A stretch of 64,000 bases of DNA. It comes from Candidatus Kapaibacterium sp. (GTDB taxonomy: Bacteria > Bacteroidota > Ignavibacteria > Kapaibacteriales > HRBIN21). Shown here piece by piece: positions 7,131 to 46,013 of the stretch. Numbering within the stretch: the first letter of the stretch is position 1; each line of letters opens with the position of its first letter. Under the pieces are notes generated by a model. The model did no database searches and was not told the DNA's origin. It was given only the letters and a program-made list of their open reading frames with translations. The DNA lies in contig JANXCT010000002.1 in assembly GCA_025059875.1 (NCBI GenBank), positions 1 to 64,000 of the forward strand, written 5' to 3'. The position numbers and the translations under genes are program-made.

Positions 7131-7857
7131 CGTGGACCATGTGGCAACGGTGCGTGAGGCCCGCGGAGGGGTGCGTCCTGATCCCGTGATGGCTGCGATG
7201 CTGGCGGAATTGGCTGGAGCTGCTGGGATTGTGTGTCATCTGCGGGAAGATCGGCGCCACATCAACGATCGGGACGTTCGGCTGCTTCGCGAGGTGGTCA
7301 AGACACGGCTCAACCTGGAGATGGCGGCAACGGAGGAGATGATCAGTATTGCCTGCGAGGTGCTGCCGGATCTCGTCACTCTGGTGCCGGAGCGACGCCA
7401 GGAGCGGACGACTGAAGGTGGACTCAATGTTGTCGAGCAGCAGCACTACCTCCAGACGGTGATTGAACGGCTGCACGAGGCGGAAATCCAGGTGAGTCTG
7501 TTCGTGGAGCCAGTGCTGGAACAGATAGAAGCCGCTGCCGAGGTCGGAGCAGACATTGTCGAGCTGCACACGGGGCACTATGCGGCAGCGACCAATCCAC
7601 AGGCTGCACAACGGGAGCTCCAGCGCTTGCTGAATGCTGCGGAGTTCGCTCAGCGGCTGGGGTTGCATGTTGCTGCTGGTCATGGCTTGGACTACGACAA
7701 CATCATTCCCATCTGTCGCATTCCAGCGATTCAAGATGTGAGCATTGGGCATGCGATTGTGGCTCGCTCCATCTTCGTGGGCTTTGAACAGGCCGTTCGC
7801 CAGATGGTGGAGCTCATTCGCTACGGTCGTCTGCTGCCCCCTCTGAAGCTGCGCTGA
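7114..7857 (+). CDS. pdxJ: Pyridoxine 5'-phosphate synthase
   Basis: 247 aa TIM-barrel enzyme that condenses 1-deoxyxylulose 5-phosphate with aminoacetone 3-phosphate to make pyridoxine 5'-phosphate, the last ring-forming step of DXP-dependent vitamin B6 synthesis. The N terminus ELSVNVDHVATVREARGG and the phosphate/active-site motifs CHLREDRRHI, LVPERRQERTTEGGL and AAGHGLDYDN are diagnostic. The start at 7114 follows a strong GGAGGGG Shine-Dalgarno and gives the usual family length. It overlaps the permease gene upstream and abuts rsmE by a TGATG junction. Confidence 0.96.
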   Translation: MELSVNVDHVATVREARGGVRPDPVMAAMLAELAGAAGIVCHLREDRRHINDRDVRLLREVVKTRLNLEMAATEEMISIACEVLPDLVTLVPERRQERTTEGGLNVVEQQHYLQTVIERLHEAEIQVSLFVEPVLEQIEAAAEVGADIVELHTGHYAAATNPQAAQRELQRLLNAAEFAQRLGLHVAAGHGLDYDNIIPICRIPAIQDVSIGHAIVARSIFVGFEQAVRQMVELIRYGRLLPPLKLR

Positions 7858-8564
7858 TGGAGTGCCTGTACGTGCCTGCCTTAGAGGTTGGGCAGGCGTT
7901 CGTCGAGCTTACCGATCCAGACGAACTCCGCCACGTGAGAGCCCTACGGCTCCGCCAAGGAGAGCGGGTAGCACTCACGAACGGACGTGGCTGCCTCGTT
8001 GTGGGGGAACTGCTCCAGTACTCCAAAGCCCCACCTCGAGCGCTCTTCAGGGTCGTTGAGCTTCTGGAACCGCCGGAATTCCCAGTGCGATTAGGACTGG
8101 CAATTGGTCTCCTCCATGACCGCGAACGGCTGGAATTCGCTGTAGAGAAGGCGGTGGAGCTCGGGGTACAGGAGATCGTTCTCCTGCGGACATGCTATGC
8201 ACAGCCGTGTGAGGTGCGTCTGGAGCGTCTTCGAGCGAAGGTGCTTGCTGCAGTCAAGCAAGCGCATCGGGCCTGGATGCCCAGTATTCGGGGCCCTATG
8301 GGATTGGTCGAGTGCTGTGATAGCGTGCTCCCGGCCTACAGGCAATCGATTGTAGCGGAGGTGTCTGGAAGGGAACCAGCTCCTTTGAGGAACTCCCCGA
8401 CGTTGGTCCTCGTGGGTCCCGAAGGCGGGTGGTCGGCAGAGGAACTGCAGATACTTCAACAGGCGAGGGCAGCACTGTGGTCTCTGGGCCAACAGCGTCT
8501 GCGTGCAGAGACAGCCGCCGTAGTCGCTCTTGGCCTCGTAAGATTCCTCCTACGCCAGAGCTGA
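7857..8564 (+). CDS. rsmE: 16S rRNA (uracil-1498-N3) methyltransferase RsmE
   Basis: 235 aa SPOUT-class methyltransferase that modifies U1498 of 16S rRNA using S-adenosylmethionine. An N-terminal PUA-like domain (DPDELRHVRALRLRQGE) precedes the knotted SPOUT domain: EKAVELGVQEIVLL, LVLVGPEGGWSAEE (SAM-binding knot) and LRAETAAVVAL. The ATG overlaps the pdxJ stop (TGATG). From about codon 20 to its end the gene has a decayed second copy about 1.6 kb downstream (9507-10135); this upstream copy is the intact one. Convergent with the lipoprotein gene that ends 18 bp away. Confidence 0.95.
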   Translation: MECLYVPALEVGQAFVELTDPDELRHVRALRLRQGERVALTNGRGCLVVGELLQYSKAPPRALFRVVELLEPPEFPVRLGLAIGLLHDRERLEFAVEKAVELGVQEIVLLRTCYAQPCEVRLERLRAKVLAAVKQAHRAWMPSIRGPMGLVECCDSVLPAYRQSIVAEVSGREPAPLRNSPTLVLVGPEGGWSAEELQILQQARAALWSLGQQRLRAETAAVVALGLVRFLLRQS

Positions 8565-8582
8565 GGGTCTTACTGATGGCCT

Positions 8583-9287
8583 CTACGCGCCCTTGCGTGG
8601 CAGTTTCTCGACATCCTTTCGGAGACCTTCTCCAAGCTCTTCTCCGGCTCGTTGGGCAGCCTGTGCTAAGATGCGCCGAATCTCCTCAGCCTCTAGCGAC
8701 AGGAGTCGTCTGGCGTTGAGAATGCTAGCTACCGTTGCTACCCCTGGAACGAAAGCTGCCGCAGTCGTACGCTGCAAGGGGATGGAGGTGTGTTCGGAGT
8801 CTTCCCAGACGATCCGTGCGGTTTCCCGGTGGATGATGCGGGAACGGACTCTGACCTGTGCGCTGACCCCAAAGCTGGAGCTTGTCAGTGTGAATTCCTC
8901 CAAGATGGTCTCTACCAAGAAGGCAGGTTCGTCCTCTCGGGAGCGTACCGGTCGGAGCCGAAGATAGTCTTCGGCGGCCTTCTGGAAGCCGCGGCCGGCT
9001 GCCAGGGCCAACTCCTCTGGGACAATTGCTTGCTGGAGCTTCTGGTACGCTGCAGCCTCGGTCAAGAACTCCCCAGCAGTGCGGGCAATTTCCAGCATCC
9101 ACTTAGCTTCTCGCGGTTGGGCTGTGTCCTCAGGTAGGGGGGCAATCCAGACTTCGGTGCCAAAGGCCTTTGGCGAGACCCGAGCCTGGAAGAGAGCTGT
9201 GCTTCCAATGATGGGATACTGGGCCAGTCGGTTCGTGTGGCATCCGACGAGGAGAGTAGCTATTACGCCGATGAGGAAAACGTACAT
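8583..9287 (-). CDS. Putative lipoprotein A (duplicated family)
   Basis: About 234 aa with a lipoprotein signal peptide ending LLVGC, so probably anchored to a membrane by a lipidated Cys. The mature protein has a conserved block ALAAGRGFQKAAEDYLRLRP, a strand-rich middle (EEFTLTSSSFGVSAQVRVRS) resembling envelope lipoproteins with an ABC-type auxiliary-component fold, and a C-terminal helix ending DVEKLPRKGA. I do not recognise a named family. Its paralogue at 10151-10906 shares the second half closely but differs in the first. Start ATG 9287 puts the signal peptide at the N terminus. A near-consensus promoter (TAGTTTCG) lies 30 bp upstream. Confidence 0.75.
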   Translation of the reverse strand: MYVFLIGVIATLLVGCHTNRLAQYPIIGSTALFQARVSPKAFGTEVWIAPLPEDTAQPREAKWMLEIARTAGEFLTEAAAYQKLQQAIVPEELALAAGRGFQKAAEDYLRLRPVRSREDEPAFLVETILEEFTLTSSSFGVSAQVRVRSRIIHRETARIVWEDSEHTSIPLQRTTAAAFVPGVATVASILNARRLLSLEAEEIRRILAQAAQRAGEELGEGLRKDVEKLPRKGA

Positions 9288-9316
9288 GGGAGTCGCGGAA
9301 GTAGCTGAAACTTGCA

Positions 9317-9324
9317 CGAAACTA
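9317..9324 (-). promoter_or_regulatory. Candidate variant -7 element (TAGTTTCG) for lipoprotein A
   Basis: The minus strand reads TAGTTTCG, one base off TAnnTTTG, 30 bp before the start codon. The duplicated gene has the same variant ending (TATTTTCG) at the matching place, which supports function. Confidence 0.4.
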
Positions 9325-9382
9325 CGAGATTTTGGGGTACGAGTTCCATCAGCCTGGGATTACCAACCCTTCATGTTTGCGT

Positions 9383-9505
9383 GCTGGAATGGACGATACT
9401 CGGCCTCTACCTCGAGGAGGAGCTGTAGCCAGCGTTGGCGGATGATTTCGGGGCTGAAATTGCTCTCGAATTGGGAGCGAGCTGCCCAAGTGTGGACTTG
9501 CTGGA
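9383..9505 (-). pseudogene. 3' fragment of a GT4 glycosyltransferase gene (duplication remnant)
   Basis: This stretch matches the last 120 bp of the glycosyltransferase gene at 10992-11110 (shared run CCAGCGTTGGCGGATGATTT and flanks, only scattered differences), including the region of its stop codon. The similarity stops abruptly at about 9505, where rsmE-derived sequence begins. It has no start and no promoter and is a by-product of the tandem duplication. Confidence 0.85.
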
Positions 9506-9506
9506 G

Positions 9507-10135
9507 GTTCAGACGAACTTCACTATGTGAGGGCTCCTACGGCTTCGCCGAGGAGAGCGGATAGCGCTGACGAATGGACACGGCTGTCTCGTTGTGGGTA
9601 ACTGCTCCAGTACTCCGAAGCCCTGCTTCGGGCGCTCTTCGGGGGCGTTGGGCTTCTGGAACCGCCGGAATTCCCAGTGCGATTAGGACTGGCAATTGGT
9701 CTCCTCCATGAGCGCGAACGACTGGAATTGCCATAGAGAAAGGCAGTCGAGCTTGGAACACAGGAGATTGTCCTCCTGCGGACGTACTACACACAGCCAT
9801 ATGAGGTGTGTCTGGATTGTTCCGAGCGAAGGTCGTTGCCGCGCTGAAGCAAGCATGCCGGGCCTAGATGCACAGTATTCGGGGCCCTATGGGGTTAGCT
9901 GAATGCTGTAGTAGTGTGTTCCCAGCTTATGGGCGGCGGGTTCTAGCGGAGGTATCTAGGGGAGAGCTGACTCTTTTCGAAGGCTCTCCGACGTTGGTCT
10001 TCGTAGGTCCCGAAGGAGGGGGGTCGGTAGAGGAGTTGCGGATACTTCGCCATGTAGGAGCAGCGCTGTAGTCTTCGGGGCAACGCGTCTACATGCAGAG
10101 ATGGCTACCGTAGTCGCTCTCGGGCTTGTGAGAAC
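9507..10135 (+). pseudogene. Decayed copy of rsmE
   Basis: Nucleotide similarity to rsmE runs from its codon 20 (CAGACGAACT) to the last codons. The first 20 codons and the start are missing. Damage includes a lost G near 9599 that shifts the frame (GTGGGTAACTG against GTGGGGGAACTG), TGG-to-TAG changes near 9867 (CGGGCCTAGATG) and near 10070 (GCGCTGTAGTC), and a TAG near 9735. The GGTCCCGAAGGAGG SAM-knot region is still readable. Not translatable as a methyltransferase. This accounts for the gene-free stretch 9318-10150. Confidence 0.92.
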
Positions 10136-10150
10136 TTTTACTGATGGCCT

Positions 10151-10906
10151 CTACGCGCCCTTACGTGGCAGCTTCTCAACATCCTTTCGGAGTTTTTCCC
10201 CAAGCTTTTGCCCGGCTTGTTGAGCAGCCTGTGCCAAGATATGCCGGATCTCCTCAGGCTGGAGTGACAGGAGTAGCTCAGCAGGGAGGACACCTGAACC
10301 GGGACCTCTTGCTGTTACATGCTGCAAGGGGGCTGAGGCGCGTTCGAAGTTTTCCCAGACAATCCGTGTGGTTCTCCGGTGGATGATTCGGGAACGGACT
10401 TGGACCTGGGCACGGACTCCGGCGTTGCAGCTTTCCAGCGTGAATTCCTCCAAGATAGTCTCCACCAAGAAGGCGGGCTCGTCCTCCTGAGAGCGCACCG
10501 GTCGGAGTCGAAGGTAGTCTTCGGCGGCCTTCTGGAAGCTGCGGCCAGCTGCCAGGGCCAACTCTTCAGGGACAATTGCTGGCCGAAGTCTGTGAGCGAC
10601 TGCACTCTCAATGAAGGGGGTCGTAACCATGCTAAGAATTTCCACAGCGGCGACAACAGTTTCAACGGTTTCATTCACCCGCTCAATCCAGTCGTCCTGG
10701 CGCGGACGGGTCGTGTCCTCGTCCTTAGGCTGGGACTTAGCGAGCAGGGAATCGTCGTCGCAGATATCAACGTCGAGGGAGGCCTTCGGCGGGACTTGAG
10801 TGTTGAATAGAGCTGTGCTCCCGAGGATGGGGTACTGAGCCAGTCGATTCGTCGTATTGCATCCGGTGAGGAAGATGACTGTCGCACCGATGAGAAAAGC
10901 ATACAT
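10151..10906 (-). CDS. Putative lipoprotein B (paralogue of lipoprotein A)
   Basis: About 251 aa; signal peptide ends FLTGC, a good lipobox. The C-terminal 140 residues are nearly the same as lipoprotein A (LAAGRSFQKAAEDYLRLRP, EEFTLESCNAGVRAQVQVRS, ILAQAAQQAGQKLGEKLRKD). The first part of the mature protein has an extra acidic segment (DVDICDDDSLLAKSQ, then a D/E-rich stretch) and a hydrophobic patch VETVVAAVEILSMVT not seen in A. Both copies keep an open frame, a lipobox and a promoter-like element, so both are probably in use and diverging. ATG 10906 is preferred; an upstream in-frame TTG at 10957 would add 17 residues before the signal peptide. Confidence 0.75.
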   Translation of the reverse strand: MYAFLIGATVIFLTGCNTTNRLAQYPILGSTALFNTQVPPKASLDVDICDDDSLLAKSQPKDEDTTRPRQDDWIERVNETVETVVAAVEILSMVTTPFIESAVAHRLRPAIVPEELALAAGRSFQKAAEDYLRLRPVRSQEDEPAFLVETILEEFTLESCNAGVRAQVQVRSRIIHRRTTRIVWENFERASAPLQHVTARGPGSGVLPAELLLSLQPEEIRHILAQAAQQAGQKLGEKLRKDVEKLPRKGA

Positions 10907-10935
10907 GGCAAGGTTGGGAAGTACGGGGAACCTCA

Positions 10936-10943
10936 CGAAAATA
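10936..10943 (-). promoter_or_regulatory. Candidate variant -7 element (TATTTTCG) for lipoprotein B
   Basis: The minus strand reads TATTTTCG about 30 bp before ATG 10906, in the same relative place as TAGTTTCG before lipoprotein A. One base differs from TAnnTTTG. Confidence 0.4.
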
Positions 10944-10991
10944 CGGCAGAGTGGCAAGTTTCCGTGCTGCTTATCCCTTGGTGCTCTTGTG

Positions 10992-12146
10992 CTAGAGCCG
11001 ACGATACTTGGCCTCTACCTCAAGGAGAAGCTGTAGCCAGCGTTGGCGGATGATTTCGGGGCTGAAATTGCTCTCAAATTGGGAGCGAGCTGCACGGGCA
11101 TGGGCTTGCCAGAGACCGGGTTGGTGCCAGTAACGGGCTATGGCTGCGGCGACAGCTTCCGGTGATGAGCCGGTGAGGAAGCCGTGAACACCAGAACAGA
11201 CGACGTCAGGAATGGAGCCCCGTGGGGTGCTAATGACGGCACAGCCAGCGTTGAGAGCCTCAATGATGCTGATAGGTTGGGCTTCTAGGGGATGGTCTGT
11301 CGGGAGCACCATGAGATGGTGTGTAAGGTAGAGCTCCCGTAGCATAGCTGAATTGCTGACGAGCCCATGGTGATGGACTCTCTCCTGCAGTCCGAGTGTG
11401 CGGACACGCTCTGCAAACGAAGCGGCATCAGCTGGGGAGCTCCAGCCACCTACATACGTTGCTTGGCACGGAATGCCAGCGGCTTGGAGGAGTGCAATAG
11501 CCTCCAGCAGGCGCCAGCCGCCTTTCTCCGGCATCATGTGTCCGACGAAGAGGAGCCGTAGGGGTGAGGAAGGGAGCTGCGCTAGCTTCTGCTCTACCTC
11601 TTCCCGTGAACAGAGCAGGGCGCGAGCAATGAGGTTGGGGATGATGGCAATCCGGTCTTGGGGTACGATCCCCTGCAGGAGCCTACCGAGGTTTGGCCCT
11701 GCGACGACGAAGAAGCGTATCCGCCGTGCGAGCCAGCGGAGAGTCTGCCGTCCCACGGGGGAGTTCGTGAGCGTTTGTAGGGAATTGTGGGTCCATACTA
11801 CCACGGGGCATCGGGGCGGGATAGCCCACGCGAAGGCAGCGCAGTCCCGAAGGTGACCCAGCCAGTTGCCAGAGAGAATGGCATAGAGGATGGGGGAAGG
11901 GTGGCGGGTCGTGAAGCTGCGAAGGGTGGAAAGGTAGCGGAGCATCTCCCTGACACGCTTCATGCGGAGTTGTCCGGGCGGGATGATGCGGCCTTCGGGC
12001 GGTCGGGCTGTGGAGTTCAGGCAGGTGAATGTGATGTCGGGAGCCAGTAGCTCTACCAGCTCCTGGGTAGCGATACTCTGGCCGTCACGTGGGGGTGGGA
12101 AGCGTCCACAGCAGAGCCAGTGGTGAGAACTGGGATAGGATGCCAT
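10992..12146 (-). CDS. GT4-family glycosyltransferase
   Basis: 384 aa, two Rossmann-like halves (GT-B fold). The C-terminal half has the usual GT4 features: LRLLFVGHMMPEKGGWRLLEA, LMVLPTDHPLEAQPISIIEALNAGCAVIST and the acceptor/donor region following. It transfers a sugar from a nucleotide donor in cytoplasmic assembly of a surface glycan; donor and acceptor are unknown. Its last 120 bp are duplicated at 9383-9505. No TAnnTTTG element is seen directly upstream on its strand; the 136-bp gap to ypdA instead holds a candidate small RNA on the plus strand. It may be transcribed by read-through from the adk-ypdA operon. Confidence 0.85.
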   Translation of the reverse strand: MASYPSSHHWLCCGRFPPPRDGQSIATQELVELLAPDITFTCLNSTARPPEGRIIPPGQLRMKRVREMLRYLSTLRSFTTRHPSPILYAILSGNWLGHLRDCAAFAWAIPPRCPVVVWTHNSLQTLTNSPVGRQTLRWLARRIRFFVVAGPNLGRLLQGIVPQDRIAIIPNLIARALLCSREEVEQKLAQLPSSPLRLLFVGHMMPEKGGWRLLEAIALLQAAGIPCQATYVGGWSSPADAASFAERVRTLGLQERVHHHGLVSNSAMLRELYLTHHLMVLPTDHPLEAQPISIIEALNAGCAVISTPRGSIPDVVCSGVHGFLTGSSPEAVAAAIARYWHQPGLWQAHARAARSQFESNFSPEIIRQRWLQLLLEVEAKYRRL

Positions 12147-12177
12147 CGAGTTTGGATGCTAGGATGGGAGCAGTGCG

Positions 12178-12185
12178 TATTTTTG
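12178..12185 (+). promoter_or_regulatory. Candidate -7 element (TATTTTTG) of a small RNA
   Basis: Full TAnnTTTG match on the plus strand with TTTG at 12151-12154, 23 bp upstream (the same spacing as in front of holB). No plus-strand ORF follows before the T-run ending at 12273. Confidence 0.55.
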
Positions 12186-12190
12186 CAGTC

Positions 12191-12273
12191 GAGCTGAGCG
12201 CTGCTCTCTCCCCTGAGCGGCGCGCCAGATGCTCGAGCCTGGGGGTCCCCCAACGCCGCCGGGCTCTTTTTTT
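12191..12273 (+). ncRNA. Candidate small RNA of about 80 nt with two hairpins
   Basis: Between the promoter element at 12178 and a T7 run at 12267-12273 lies a short non-coding segment. Hairpin 1 has a 9-bp stem (GCGCTGCTC against GAGCGGCGC, one G-U pair) and an 8-nt C-rich loop TCTCCCCT. The second is the terminator hairpin. A C-rich exposed loop could pair with purine-rich ribosome binding sites, as UCCC-loop regulatory RNAs do in other bacteria. It does not contain the SRP RNA, tmRNA or tRNA hallmark sequences I know. Both neighbouring genes are on the minus strand, so a plus-strand promoter and terminator here have no coding explanation. Confidence 0.5.
12235..12273 (+). terminator. Hairpin with T7 tail (end of candidate small RNA)
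   Basis: GAGCCT (12235-12240) pairs with GGGCTC (12261-12266), with a G/C-rich interior (GGGGG ... CCCCC), followed by TTTTTTTATT. The T-run is only on the plus strand, so it does not serve ypdA, whose stop codon is at 12283. Confidence 0.7.
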
Positions 12274-12282
12274 ATTCGGAGC

Positions 12283-13269
12283 TTACCGGTTGGGGACATG
12301 CCGCTGTAGGATATCGGCGATGATGGGGACAGCATGGGCACGTCCGTTCTCGATGAAGACATTCCACGTCTCGCAACCACAAACAACGGAACCGGCTACA
12401 TAGAGTCCAGGCACGGAGGTCTCAAAGGTCTCTGGGTTGTAGACCGGCACCAGCGAGGGGTGCTGGAGTTCAATCCCCATGGATTCCAGGAACGAAGCGT
12501 TGGGACGGTATCCTGTGTGGGCAATCACGAAGTCTACCTCTAGTGCGAAGCGTTGCTCGGTGTCTAGGTTTCGCAGCCAGAGGCGCTTGGGCTCAATTGC
12601 CTCCACGACAGTCTGGAAGTAGGCACGAATCTCCCCCCGGCGGATACGGTTCTCTATGTCTGGCTTAAGCCAGTACTTCACGGACTCTCCAATCCATGCT
12701 CTCCGGTGGATGAGGAAGACGGTAGCCCCGTGCCGGTAGAGGTCCAAGGCCGTCTCCACTGCGGAATTCCGTCCGCCGATGACAGCGACGCGGGTGTGCA
12801 CATAGCCGTATGGCTCTGTGTAGTAGTGCGTCACATGCGGAAGCTCCTCCCCAGGCACCTCTAGGAGGTTTGGCTGGTCAAAGTATCCCGTGGCTACGAT
12901 GACTATGCGGCTGCGCAGAGTTTCACCATGGGCAGTGCGTACAGAGAAGAGCCCACCATCGCGCTCCACACTCACCACGGGCGTGTAGAGCCGGATGGGC
13001 AACCGGAAGTACTCAGCAACTCGGCGGTAGTATTGGAGTGCTTCTACCCGTGTCGGACGGGGGTGGGCTGTCGGAAAGGGGATGCCTCCGAGTTCCAGGT
13101 TCTCCGCAGTGGAGAAGAAGACCATATTGGTCGGAAAGCGACGGATGGAGTCCACGAGGGCCCCTTTCTCCAAGATGAGGAAGCGAAGACCAGCCCGCTG
13201 GGCTTCAATTCCACACGACAGACCCGTTGGACCGGCCCCGATGATGACTGTATCCCAGAGCTCCTCCAT
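12283..13269 (-). CDS. ypdA: YpdA-type bacillithiol disulfide reductase
   Basis: 328 aa flavoprotein of the thioredoxin-reductase-like fold without a redox CxxC pair. The FAD-binding motif is VIIGAGPTGLSCGIEA near the N terminus, the NADPH-binding motif VAVIGGRNSAVETALDL in the middle, and the terminal FAD motif SVPGLYVAGSVVCG. YpdA proteins reduce oxidised bacillithiol with NADPH; bacillithiol or its methyl form is known from Bacteroidota and Chlorobi, so this fits the inferred host. ATG 13269 overlaps the stop of the upstream gene by one base (TGATG); the frame extends 13 codons further into that gene. Probably transcribed from the adk promoter. Confidence 0.88.
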   Translation of the reverse strand: MEELWDTVIIGAGPTGLSCGIEAQRAGLRFLILEKGALVDSIRRFPTNMVFFSTAENLELGGIPFPTAHPRPTRVEALQYYRRVAEYFRLPIRLYTPVVSVERDGGLFSVRTAHGETLRSRIVIVATGYFDQPNLLEVPGEELPHVTHYYTEPYGYVHTRVAVIGGRNSAVETALDLYRHGATVFLIHRRAWIGESVKYWLKPDIENRIRRGEIRAYFQTVVEAIEPKRLWLRNLDTEQRFALEVDFVIAHTGYRPNASFLESMGIELQHPSLVPVYNPETFETSVPGLYVAGSVVCGCETWNVFIENGRAHAVPIIADILQRHVPNR

Positions 13270-16175
13270 CAACGTGCGATGAGCAGCGGGGCAGTCCGAC
13301 CATCCCACAGCCGGAGCAAGTAGAGGCCTGTGGGCAGGTGGCGAACATCGCAGCGGAGCCGTACTGTACCAGCGTCAGCTACCACCGGCTCGGCAGGGAG
13401 CCAATACACTTGCCCTAGAACATTGACGACCTGAACCGGCCTCGCTAACCTTGGCGGAGCCGGGGTCGAAAGCTCTATCCACACCTCTTCAGCCGCTGGC
13501 TGCGGGAAGAGTAGCACTGAAGGTGTCGCAGTGACTGGCTCCGTGATGGCGTCGGGCTCGGCTGCGTCTAAGCGGACGTTGTCGATGTACCAGCCATCAT
13601 TGTTCCGGAACGGGTTGGAGCGCAGCCGGAAGCGGATGTAGAGCGTATCGCCGATGAAGCGCCGTAGATCACGGTGCTCGGAGACCCACTGGCTGTTCCC
13701 CACACTGTCTCGGAAGCCAGGCGAGCGTCGGATGTCAATTGCTTGTACAACATACCACGTCCGTCCGAAATCAGGGGAGACCTCTGTCACGGCTGTATCG
13801 CCTACTTCTACCAAGGCAATCGTCTCGTAGCTGAGTGTTGGAGTGGCTGCTGAAACGAGCACAGGGGCAAGCACTACCCAGGTGTTAGAGCGGTGAGGGT
13901 AGTTGCCTACGGGGGAGTCCGTTAGGGAGTTCGGGGGTGAAGCGGAGGCCCGGGTCGTCAACCCCCAGGCACCGTTGGTGAACATCGCGGGGGTTGTGGC
14001 GCTATCATCGAAGGTGGCATACAGCTGCCGCAATGGAGCTCCTGCATACGCCAGTACTGTGTCGGATGGCTGGCTCAATGTTAGCTGACCACCTCGCAGA
14101 CCCACGGCACGTAGGAAGAGCTGGTAGAAGCGACCCGTGGGGAGCCTTACCACGTGGGACGTCAGCGCCCCTGCTTGCACTCGGGGAGGCTCCAAACTGT
14201 CGATTGAGACACCTGTTGCGGCATCGTAGATGTAGAGCCGTGCGAAGTCGTAGAAGTCTGAGCTGTCAACGTGGTAAGCGGGATTGCGCCATGAGAGGAG
14301 GACTCCGTCCTCATGCGGACGAGCAACGATGTCTGTCGGGGGAAGGGGCTCCCTTGCGCCACCAACGAAGCCAGAAATGGTAACGGGTTCGCTCTCTAAG
14401 CTGTCAGGGGTGACCGCAACGAGCGTGTAGCTGAACGGATCACCGTCAGGAAGCCCAGATTCAGTGTACTCCTGCTGCCCCTTGGGAACGGTTGCCACAA
14501 GAGTAGAGCCCCGGAAGACACGGATGACGAAGTTCCCTAAAGGCTCGCCCAGGAGGTTCTCCGTTGGATCGCGCCACCGTAGGCGGACAGAGCCAGCGGC
14601 AGGGAAAGTAGCTCGGAGGCTATCTGGGGGGCGTGGGGCTGAGCTGACAAGTGCAACGTAGGCATCCAGGGTGCTGAAAGAGCCGCGTGGTGCATTGGGC
14701 ATCCAGAAGCAGGGGTAGATGCGCCCGCCGTATGCAGTGATGGCGGTATAGTCGCCCCAGTAGTAGTTGCCCGGCCCCTGGAAGGAGACATCCTCGGGGC
14801 CGTCGATGTAGAACGTCCAGGGGGTGAGTCGTATGTGGCGCCAGCTTTGGGCATCGCGCGAGATGGCCAGATACGCGTCCACCCCTTTGTTCTGCGGATC
14901 GTGCTGCGAGCTGTAGTAGAGCACGGCAATCATGCCTGTCACGGGATCTACGCAGATGGCGGGGAAGAAGACATCGTTATTGAGCGCGTTGTTGTCAATC
15001 CGCTGCGAGGGCGACCAGATCGTGCCGCCATTGGTGGAGTACGTTAGGTAGATGCCCGTCCGGCCGAGGTCGTCCCGGCCAGCTTGCACCAAGTAGATCC
15101 AACCGCGGCGGGGACCTGTGGAGAGGTCCACAGCAATAGCGGGGTAGGAGCTGACACGGATGTTCTGCTTGTCAGGCAGGACTTGCCGGCCACTTGCGGA
15201 ATTGATAGTGCCCAGCAACACAACAGACTGTGCTAGTACAGGGGAAGGTCGCCATGTACGGCCTCCATCGGTGGAGATTTGGAAGAGGGCATTCTCCCGA
15301 TTGCCAAGGCGCTGCCGCCAGGCGACGTAGACCTGTCCTTGGGGACCGACAGCTAAGATCGGAGCTTGAGTGTCTCCGCCGCTACCTGGAAGCAGAACGG
15401 GAACACTCCAGCTCTGTCCACGGTCTGTGCTACGTGCGACGTAAATGCCCGGTGTACCTCCGAAGCGCCGCCATGCGACGTAGATGGAGTTGCGGTACGG
15501 AGAAGTGCTGATAGTGTCTACCACCATCAAGCACTTGTCGTCGAAGGGGACGTTCTGCCCCTGGTTGAGCGTAACGGGGGAGAGCTCCGTCCAACTCTGA
15601 CCAGTGTTAGTGGAGAGAGCAACGAAGACCCCGTTGGTGCCACTCGGCTCATCGCTGAGGAGCTGTACCATGATGTGACTGTAGTACGCGTTCCCGTCGG
15701 AATCAAAGCAGAGGCCTGGGTCGGCGATTGCCGCACCGGTGTTGGTGGGTACGAAGAAGTTCTGGGGAGTCAAAGCAGCACTCCATGTCCGGCCTCCGTC
15801 TGTGCTGCGGTAGGAGACCATGCGGTAGTTGCCGCCGTAGTTGTAGCGTGAATCGTTGGCACCCGCCAGTAGGAGGCGCGGGTTCTGGGGGTGGAGGGTG
15901 ATCCAGGTCTCGCTCTGGTCTAAGGGGTATGGGGAAATGTTGACTAGCGGTATCCCTGTAGGGCCATGGAGCAGGTGGGGGCCTTCATGGGGTTTCGTGA
16001 GGTCCTCGAGACGATAATCCTGCGGATTAACTCGCCGGATAGCCCCCCAGCGGATAGGCTGGGTCTCCATACCAGCTTGGAGGTACAGCGGGAGCTGCCG
16101 GGCATCCTGTTGCCCCCAGAGTGTGGCGGCAGCCAAGATAATCACAGCGCACAGGCTACTGAGACGGCGGTACAT
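13269..16175 (-). CDS. T9SS-secreted sialidase-like (BNR repeat) protein with FN3 and MAM-like domains
   Basis: About 968 aa. A signal peptide (MYRRLSSLCAVIILAAATLWG) is followed by a large beta-propeller with several Asp-box repeats (STDGGRTWS, STNTGQSWTE, STDRGQSWSV, STNGGTIWSP), then two fibronectin type III-like domains (about 510-700), a jelly-roll region with FDDSATTPAMF ... GWYIDNVRLD typical of surface choice-of-anchor modules, and a T9SS sorting domain (LLFPQPAAEEVWIEL ... LPTGLYLLRLW). Asp boxes also occur in non-sialidases, so hydrolysis of sialic acid is not shown. Start ATG 16175 fits the signal peptide and overlaps adk by 20 bp. Confidence 0.85.
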   Translation of the reverse strand: MYRRLSSLCAVIILAAATLWGQQDARQLPLYLQAGMETQPIRWGAIRRVNPQDYRLEDLTKPHEGPHLLHGPTGIPLVNISPYPLDQSETWITLHPQNPRLLLAGANDSRYNYGGNYRMVSYRSTDGGRTWSAALTPQNFFVPTNTGAAIADPGLCFDSDGNAYYSHIMVQLLSDEPSGTNGVFVALSTNTGQSWTELSPVTLNQGQNVPFDDKCLMVVDTISTSPYRNSIYVAWRRFGGTPGIYVARSTDRGQSWSVPVLLPGSGGDTQAPILAVGPQGQVYVAWRQRLGNRENALFQISTDGGRTWRPSPVLAQSVVLLGTINSASGRQVLPDKQNIRVSSYPAIAVDLSTGPRRGWIYLVQAGRDDLGRTGIYLTYSTNGGTIWSPSQRIDNNALNNDVFFPAICVDPVTGMIAVLYYSSQHDPQNKGVDAYLAISRDAQSWRHIRLTPWTFYIDGPEDVSFQGPGNYYWGDYTAITAYGGRIYPCFWMPNAPRGSFSTLDAYVALVSSAPRPPDSLRATFPAAGSVRLRWRDPTENLLGEPLGNFVIRVFRGSTLVATVPKGQQEYTESGLPDGDPFSYTLVAVTPDSLESEPVTISGFVGGAREPLPPTDIVARPHEDGVLLSWRNPAYHVDSSDFYDFARLYIYDAATGVSIDSLEPPRVQAGALTSHVVRLPTGRFYQLFLRAVGLRGGQLTLSQPSDTVLAYAGAPLRQLYATFDDSATTPAMFTNGAWGLTTRASASPPNSLTDSPVGNYPHRSNTWVVLAPVLVSAATPTLSYETIALVEVGDTAVTEVSPDFGRTWYVVQAIDIRRSPGFRDSVGNSQWVSEHRDLRRFIGDTLYIRFRLRSNPFRNNDGWYIDNVRLDAAEPDAITEPVTATPSVLLFPQPAAEEVWIELSTPAPPRLARPVQVVNVLGQVYWLPAEPVVADAGTVRLRCDVRHLPTGLYLLRLWDGRTAPLLIAR

Positions 16176-16737
16176 TGTCGACGGAGATGCTTTGGAGGAG
16201 TTGGACAATTCGCTGGTGGACTGTCTCGATGTCTGCATTCCCATCCACGCTCCGCAGCTTGCCCTGCTGGGCATAGTAGTCCAGCACGGGTTGTGTCTGT
16301 TCGGCGTAGACCTGGAGTCGCTGCCGGATGACGGCTTCGGAGTCATCCAGACGACCGCGTAGCAGGAGACGACGGATGATTTCTTCCTCTGCTACCACGA
16401 TGTTGACGACTGCATCCACAGTCCTCCCTTGGCGTTGGAGGAGCGCATCGAGCGCCTGCGCCTGCGGAAGGGTCCGAGGGAAGCCATCCAAGATGCAGTT
16501 CTGGAAGTAAGGTGGTGAGGAAAGGAACTGCTCTACGATGGCTGTCACTACCTCGTCGGGCACCAGCAATCCGTTCTCTACGTAGTATCGAACCTTCTCT
16601 CCGAGCTCAGAGTTTTGGCGGATGGCACGTCGGAAAGCTTCGCCAGTCGAGAGATGGGGTAGACCGTATCGCTCTGCCAATAGCTGGGCTTGTGTTCCTT
16701 TGCCGACGCCTGGTGCACCGAAGAGCACAATGACCAT
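16156..16737 (-). CDS. adk: Adenylate kinase (short form)
   Basis: 193 aa nucleoside monophosphate kinase that interconverts ATP + AMP and 2 ADP. Seen are the P-loop GAPGVGKGTQ, the AMP-binding segment LSTGEAFRRAI, the signature LDGFPRTLPQAQAL, and LLLRGRLDDSEAVIRQRL. The LID insert with zinc cysteines is absent, so it is the short variant. ATG 16737 places the P-loop at its usual distance from the N terminus. A TATTTTTG promoter lies 60 bp upstream. It overlaps the secreted sialidase-like gene by 20 bp. Confidence 0.95.
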   Translation of the reverse strand: MVIVLFGAPGVGKGTQAQLLAERYGLPHLSTGEAFRRAIRQNSELGEKVRYYVENGLLVPDEVVTAIVEQFLSSPPYFQNCILDGFPRTLPQAQALDALLQRQGRTVDAVVNIVVAEEEIIRRLLLRGRLDDSEAVIRQRLQVYAEQTQPVLDYYAQQGKLRSVDGNADIETVHQRIVQLLQSISVDNVPPSQ

Positions 16738-16797
16738 GCTACGTATCAGCACCTTTGCCGTCTACGGGTCTACCGCTGAGGGGGCCCGTGCCAGCAG

Positions 16798-46005: not shown

Positions 46006-46013
46006 TAATTTTG
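46006..46013 (+). promoter_or_regulatory. Candidate -7 element (TAATTTTG) for tRNA-Pro
   Basis: Full TAnnTTTG match ending 8 bp before the mature tRNA 5' end, the expected place for a tRNA promoter. This gene is non-coding, so it independently supports TAnnTTTG as the promoter element of this genome. Confidence 0.7.

Follow-up and report, generated by a model that had tools for sequence, protein, structure and literature searches.

A structured small RNA gene with an invariant C-rich loop, conserved across Kapabacteria and their class

We analysed a stretch of 64,000 nt from Candidatus Kapaibacterium sp. (assembly GCA_025059875.1, contig JANXCT010000002.1, positions 1 to 64,000 of the forward strand), which we call the window, and focused on a small RNA (sRNA) gene found at 12178-12273. 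An initial annotation, made from the letters of the sequence alone, had proposed a plus-strand sRNA at this place, with a TAnnTTTG promoter box, a 9-bp hairpin and a terminator hairpin followed by seven T, between two genes of the minus strand. All three elements are present on the plus strand at the proposed coordinates, and both neighbours (10992-12146 and 12283-13308) are indeed encoded on the minus strand. An outer helix, P1 (12191-12194/12231-12234), had been overlooked; the 9-bp hairpin is called P2 in the following. The locus comprises these features:

12178..12185, plus strand: promoter box TATTTTTG, of the Bacteroidota -7 type TAnnTTTG, recognised by its sequence and by the upstream spacing in homologues
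12191..12273, plus strand: small RNA gene of about 83 nt, scoring 99.0, 88.5 and 85.6 bits with the covariance models R1 to R3, respectively
12191..12194, plus strand: 5' arm of helix P1, GAGC, partner of 12231-12234
12231..12234, plus strand: 3' arm of helix P1, GCTC, partner of 12191-12194, with covariation
12198..12206, plus strand: 5' arm of helix P2, GCGCTGCTC, with covariation
12207..12214, plus strand: C-rich loop TCTCCCCT, with the core TCCCCT at 12209-12214
12215..12223, plus strand: 3' arm of helix P2, GAGCGGCGC, with covariation
12235..12273, plus strand: intrinsic terminator, made of the hairpin GAGCCTGG..CCGGGCTC (12235-12266) and of T7 (12267-12273), from its fold and covariation
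10992-12146, minus strand: glycosyltransferase group 1 gene, neighbour of the RNA
12283-13308, minus strand: Pyr_redox_3 gene (pyridine nucleotide oxidoreductase), neighbour of the RNA; we call it YpdA-like, which is our interpretation of the Pyr_redox_3 match

The stem of P2 (12198-12206/12215-12223) has 9 bp, one of them G-U, and its 8-nt loop reads UCUCCCCU in RNA letters. The terminator hairpin carries a second C-rich loop, CCCCCAAC (12247-12254). The 5' end of the RNA was inferred from the spacing to the box and from a tRNA that abuts the RNA in one family. The plus strand of 12186-12273 folds as two hairpin domains at -45.9 kcal/mol (z = -3.5), a stability reached by 1 of 200 shuffled sequences, and the fold of the minus strand at the locus is no better than that of shuffles (z = +0.4). 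The absence of an open reading frame (ORF) stated in the initial annotation does not hold literally, as a plus-strand frame of 104 aa starting with GTG (12089-12403) spans the RNA, but this frame is non-coding, because the homologues have lengths (75-85 nt) that differ by non-multiples of three and thus break any reading frame. A coding gene at the locus was ruled out on these grounds.

A DNA search identified the element at 90-95% identity in all 5 other genomes of the genus, and also in other families of the order, in sequences labelled at their source as Candidatus Kapabacteria/Kapaibacterium, Ignavibacteria, Chlorobiota, or Bacteroidota bacteria. The first covariance model, built from 20 copies, detected the RNA in 49 of the 123 genomes of the order (Kapabacteriales), spanning nine families, and the second in 117 of the 391 genomes of the class. 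Among the retrieved loci, no true match scored below 62.9 bits, and the highest score after these was 13.8 bits. The distant copies of the class that we aligned and inspected (n = 21) mostly have GACC/GGUC in P1 and a C-run in the terminator loop, and their C-rich loop is unchanged. Outside the class, the covariance-model searches gave no convincing member of the family. The highest-scoring match there (L144, 34.7 bits with R2 and 38.7 with R3) was dropped, as it has neither the P2 hairpin nor the C loop; the lower-scoring ones (at most 35 bits with R3) were left uncounted and uninspected. An RNA of the Kapabacteriales type is also carried by JAGFIZ010000066.1 (L059), titled Bradyrhizobiaceae bacterium isolate mag.10, a title that is probably a mislabelling.

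The structure is supported by covariation in an alignment of 61 copies, where 94.8% of the base-pair cells hold standard pairs and 20 of the 23 pairs have two-sided changes. These include all 4 pairs of P1 (99.6% of cells paired), all 9 pairs of P2 (94.3%), and 7 of the 10 pairs of the terminator hairpin. The covariation score of this alignment, which is biased towards the structure because it was fitted to the model, is 0.695, against 0.279 after shuffling and at most 0.160 in slid controls. The first alignment, made with MAFFT without using any structure, gave 0.430 against 0.223. The initial annotation had asked for a covariance analysis in relatives and had regarded unconserved hairpins as evidence against the candidate; the hairpins turn out to be kept, with strong covariation, across the class. 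The sequence of the stem varies freely around the loop, and the loop core UCCCCU is identical in 61 of the 61 homologues, with 2.00 bits at all six positions. In the window copy the core has an unpaired probability of 1.0. A constant loop on a rebuilt stem is the pattern expected of a recognition sequence. In the region of the terminator loop, a C-run is found in 35 of the 61 homologues.

The genes that flank the RNA were compared across the families of the order (numbered f1, f2, and so on) and across the class. In f1 the RNA lies beside the glycosyltransferase and/or the ypdA-like gene, and in the genus of the window no same-strand gene adjoins it. It adjoins ispG in f2, f4, and part of f9, and it follows a tRNA-Met in f5, f7, f8, and f10, where the loci that were checked also have a bifunctional-nuclease gene upstream. 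In the class it is located between the genes of an ABC-transporter ATPase and of a DUF3098-like protein, or between a short conserved ORF and a DUF3098 gene, and in L150, which has two copies, between phosphoesterase-like and PEP-carboxykinase-like genes (names read from sequence). Tandem copies number 5 in L089, 4 in L095, and 2 in L093. Since these contexts are unrelated, some with tandem copies, and the structure is nevertheless kept, such persistence argues for a free trans-acting RNA and not for a leader or the terminator of one gene. Two arrangements recur. A linked cluster of tRNA-Met with between one and five sRNA copies is seen in four of the order's families (L089, L090-L093, L095, L099), and in many genomes of the class the RNA is closely followed by a gene that encodes a small membrane protein of DUF3098-like type (L134, L135, L137-L143, L146, L148, L152, and L153).

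Promoter signals are present in part of the copies. The TAnnTTTG box occurs within 14 nt upstream of 23 of the 61 copies, every one ending 4-5 nt before the RNA, and its frequency at random positions of the same loci is 0.5%. Many other copies have near variants of the box, and class members often have TTGAC farther upstream. TAnnTTTG is found at 17 places in the window (46006-46013 and other sites) for 9.5 expected, and the tRNA-Pro gene has such a box, TAATTTTG, 8 nt upstream. Because this tRNA also carries the box, it is probably used in the genome of the window for a stable RNA. A promoter box of the Bacteroidota type thus appears to be in use in Kapabacteria. In f7 the first base of the RNA directly follows the last base of the tRNA-Met as called by ARAGORN, a position that we read as two bases past the discriminator, whereas 16-51 nt separate it from an upstream tRNA-Met in f5, f8, and f10. 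We take the linked tRNA-Met to be the elongator tRNA, from its sequence. As the RNA abuts the end of the tRNA in f7, it is probably released there through tRNA 3' processing. In part of f4 the RNA follows the ispG frame of the same strand at a distance of 9 nt, and no TAnnTTTG box was found upstream of these copies.

We then compared the RNA with known families. At gathering thresholds, Rfam identifies only one tRNA in the window and no family at the RNA locus. A match to a housekeeping RNA, which would have spoken against a regulator, was not found either; the bacterial small signal recognition particle (SRP) RNA (RF00169) is encoded elsewhere in the genome (G000:C3:113752-113850, 66.9 bits). 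A permissive Rfam search gave two weak matches that recur at the correct place and strand: RF02344 (ar14, or alpha-r14), with 23.6 bits in the window and 30.3 in L106 for a gathering threshold of 58.8, and RF02837 (anti-hemB), with 17.6 bits in the window and 17.6-18.7 in relatives for a threshold of 49.5. The alpha-r14 or "cuckoo" RNAs and anti-hemB have hairpins with C-rich loops and a terminator hairpin, and are multicopy in some genomes. We rejected membership in either family, as the scores are far under the thresholds, and because the thresholds are missed by such a wide margin the likeness is most likely a convergence of design. In addition, both belong to another phylum (Proteobacteria), and the loop of ar14 is CUCCUCCUCCC, whereas the core UCCCCU is invariant in the RNA described here.

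The initial annotation had likened the loop to that of UCCC-type riboregulators. The RNA has the signals of a discrete short transcript with its own promoter and terminator, and UCCC is exposed in the loop of 61 out of 61 homologues. We judge it to be a new family of this known kind, which includes RsaE and LhrC; it belongs to none of the catalogued RNA families tested, and it would work in the UCCC-type manner. RsaE/RoxS (Staphylococcus, Bacillus) is likewise short, and its unpaired C-rich motifs bind ribosome-binding sites rich in G. At lrgA it binds AGGGGA, which is exactly complementary to the loop core UCCCCU found here, and mutating this site abolished binding (PMC6435200). Unlike the present RNA, which the Rfam search matched to no such family, RsaE/RoxS has its motif partly in single-stranded linkers and occurs in another phylum. 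LhrC of Listeria, which is multicopy, carries UCCC motifs on the loops of a hairpin and of its terminator, as here, and through them LhrC binds a G-rich sequence upstream of the lapB start codon (PMC4132741). However, LhrC has three sites per molecule, and the present RNA is rarely multicopy and has no Rfam match. Within Bacteroidota, Bacteroides encodes the sRNAs GibS and FopS, the latter multicopy, in hosts without classical RNA chaperones (PMC11697453), but the present family has no convincing member outside its class. We found no match to Hfq in 26 genomes of the order, with controls that worked. With its small size, tight fold, and C-rich loop, and in the absence of Hfq, the RNA resembles the UCCC-type sRNAs of Gram-positive bacteria. 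The literature searched contains no description of this RNA, nor of any regulatory RNA in the lineage.

To look for targets we used 464 kb of the genome of the window and 400 kb of each of two relatives, with approximate start codons. In the 30 nt before starts, AGGGGA tops its 15 letter permutations in the genome itself (9 occurrences for 3.2 expected) and in a congener (10 for 3.3), an excess of 2.8-3.0 fold, and AGGAGG is depleted in the genome itself (2 for 5.2 expected). In the class-level genome, which has ordinary sites of the AAGGAG/GGAGGT type, the counts of AGGGGA are very small. An ortholog screen of two genomes found AGGGGAG at the ribosome-binding site in both for one gene only, which encodes a secreted-type protein (G000:C2:122659-124809, minus strand). 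The GGGGAG of this site, predicted to be able to pair with the RNA loop, is kept in 6 of 6 species of the genus, whereas two control genes with different purine motifs, taken from that screen as well, have sites that drift across species. This makes the gene a candidate target, although the observation is suggestive only.

These results make us nearly certain that the locus is a real, structured, non-coding RNA gene: its presence, structure, conservation, constant loop, and independence from the neighbouring genes are all computed. We infer that it is transcribed, pairs, and represses. The TAnnTTTG promoter would drive transcription of a free-standing sRNA gene, whose own terminator would end the transcript. 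The rigid P1-P2 stem would present the 8-nt loop for pairing in trans, and in many species the second C-rich loop, on the terminator, would also be offered. The loop would then pair with AGGGGA/GGGGAG at the ribosome-binding sites of mRNAs and lower their translation, without Hfq. As an overall explanation, a free-standing sRNA gene acting in trans by pairing of its C-rich loop at ribosome-binding sites is the one we favour, with moderate confidence, and we regard action in trans through such pairing, taken by itself, as probable to about the same degree. The interpretation put forward in the initial annotation is supported, and its idea of UCCC-type pairing agrees with the invariance of the loop, the absence of Hfq matches, and the bias for AGGGGA before starts; the pairing with targets is predicted. 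Several observations weigh against the explanation. The conservation of AGGGGA across orthologs is not clearly above expectation (1 pair for 0.35), the purine-rich sites may be conserved simply for their role in ribosome binding, and the evidence for targets is thin, with small counts and approximate start codons. Furthermore, most class genomes tested and the family f3 have no detectable copy; a new search of f3 and of some of f2 with laxer filters gave nothing convincing (best 26.6 bits). The lineage can hence do without the RNA, and the lack of a detectable copy in f3, in part of f2, and in most genomes tested of the class points to an accessory regulator and not to a universal component. 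A broader scheme would be a global regulator of translation across the class, in bacteria without Hfq, with an anti-ribosome-binding-site seed, dosage tuned by tandem copies, and, in four families, a tie to the transcription of a tRNA-Met gene that lets its level track translational capacity; we give it little credence.

Other explanations start from the same facts. The C-rich loop might be recognised by an RNA-binding protein, for instance one with an RRM domain, which the RNA would titrate or guide, as CsrB titrates CsrA. A loop sequence kept without exception across the class, tandem copies that raise dosage, and an RRM_1 protein in the same genome (C2:318513-318905) would suit such a decoy or scaffold, yet each RNA has one loop instead of many repeats, the second C-rich loop is kept in only 35 of 61 homologues, and no regulator binding UCCCCU loops is known to us from bacteria, so that we consider it unlikely. 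The strong structural constraint, the invariant loop, and the close linkage to tRNA genes in some families could equally be those of a housekeeping RNA, a structural part of a ribonucleoprotein. However, the order and the class include many near-complete genomes that lack the RNA, the SRP RNA and the tmRNA (L097) are separate, and Rfam gives no match at threshold; this seems to us quite unlikely. The RRM-domain protein, encoded on the minus strand of G000 outside the window, resembles the RbpB class of Bacteroides and is a candidate sRNA partner.

The remaining alternatives concern the locus itself. In many class genomes the terminator ends at most about 200 nt before a same-strand small DUF3098-like gene, as would a cis-acting leader or attenuator, of which the window copy would be a relic. 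We rejected this, and hold it to be highly improbable, since the downstream gene is on the opposite strand in the genus of the window and in most Kapabacteriales families examined, where structure and loop are equally kept; no alternative pairing was seen by eye either, in an inspection that was not systematic. Lastly, simple promoter and terminator scans do not list the site (12178-12273), as if there were no gene but only hairpins formed by chance, or a bidirectional terminator, between two genes of the minus strand. The homologue searches and the class-wide covariation refute this, the latter and the promoter spacing being unexpected by chance, and we assign it a negligible probability.

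For the study of post-transcriptional control in Kapabacteria and their class, this RNA, which is absent from Rfam, provides a clear seed, a candidate target, and a covariance model. It also looks like a further case, independent of the others, of the UCCC-loop/AGGGGA solution beyond Firmicutes and Proteobacteria, in a group where no Hfq was found. The forms linked to tRNA-Met and the tandem forms are natural variants in which to study how sRNAs gain promoters and dosage.

The window has two other regions worth mentioning. An RsmE-like RNA methyltransferase gene (7857-8564, plus strand) and a lipoprotein-like ORF (8583-9317, minus strand) are followed by a broken second RsmE-like stretch (9683-10071) and a paralogous lipoprotein-like ORF (10151-10957, minus strand), so that the whole (7857-10957) looks like a tandem duplication. 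On the other side of the RNA, the 3' end of a BNR-repeat ORF (13269-16346) overlaps the YpdA-like ORF by 40 nt. Its true start is probably further downstream than annotated, because the first start codon gives an overlap of about 190 nt with the adenylate kinase gene (16156-16752).
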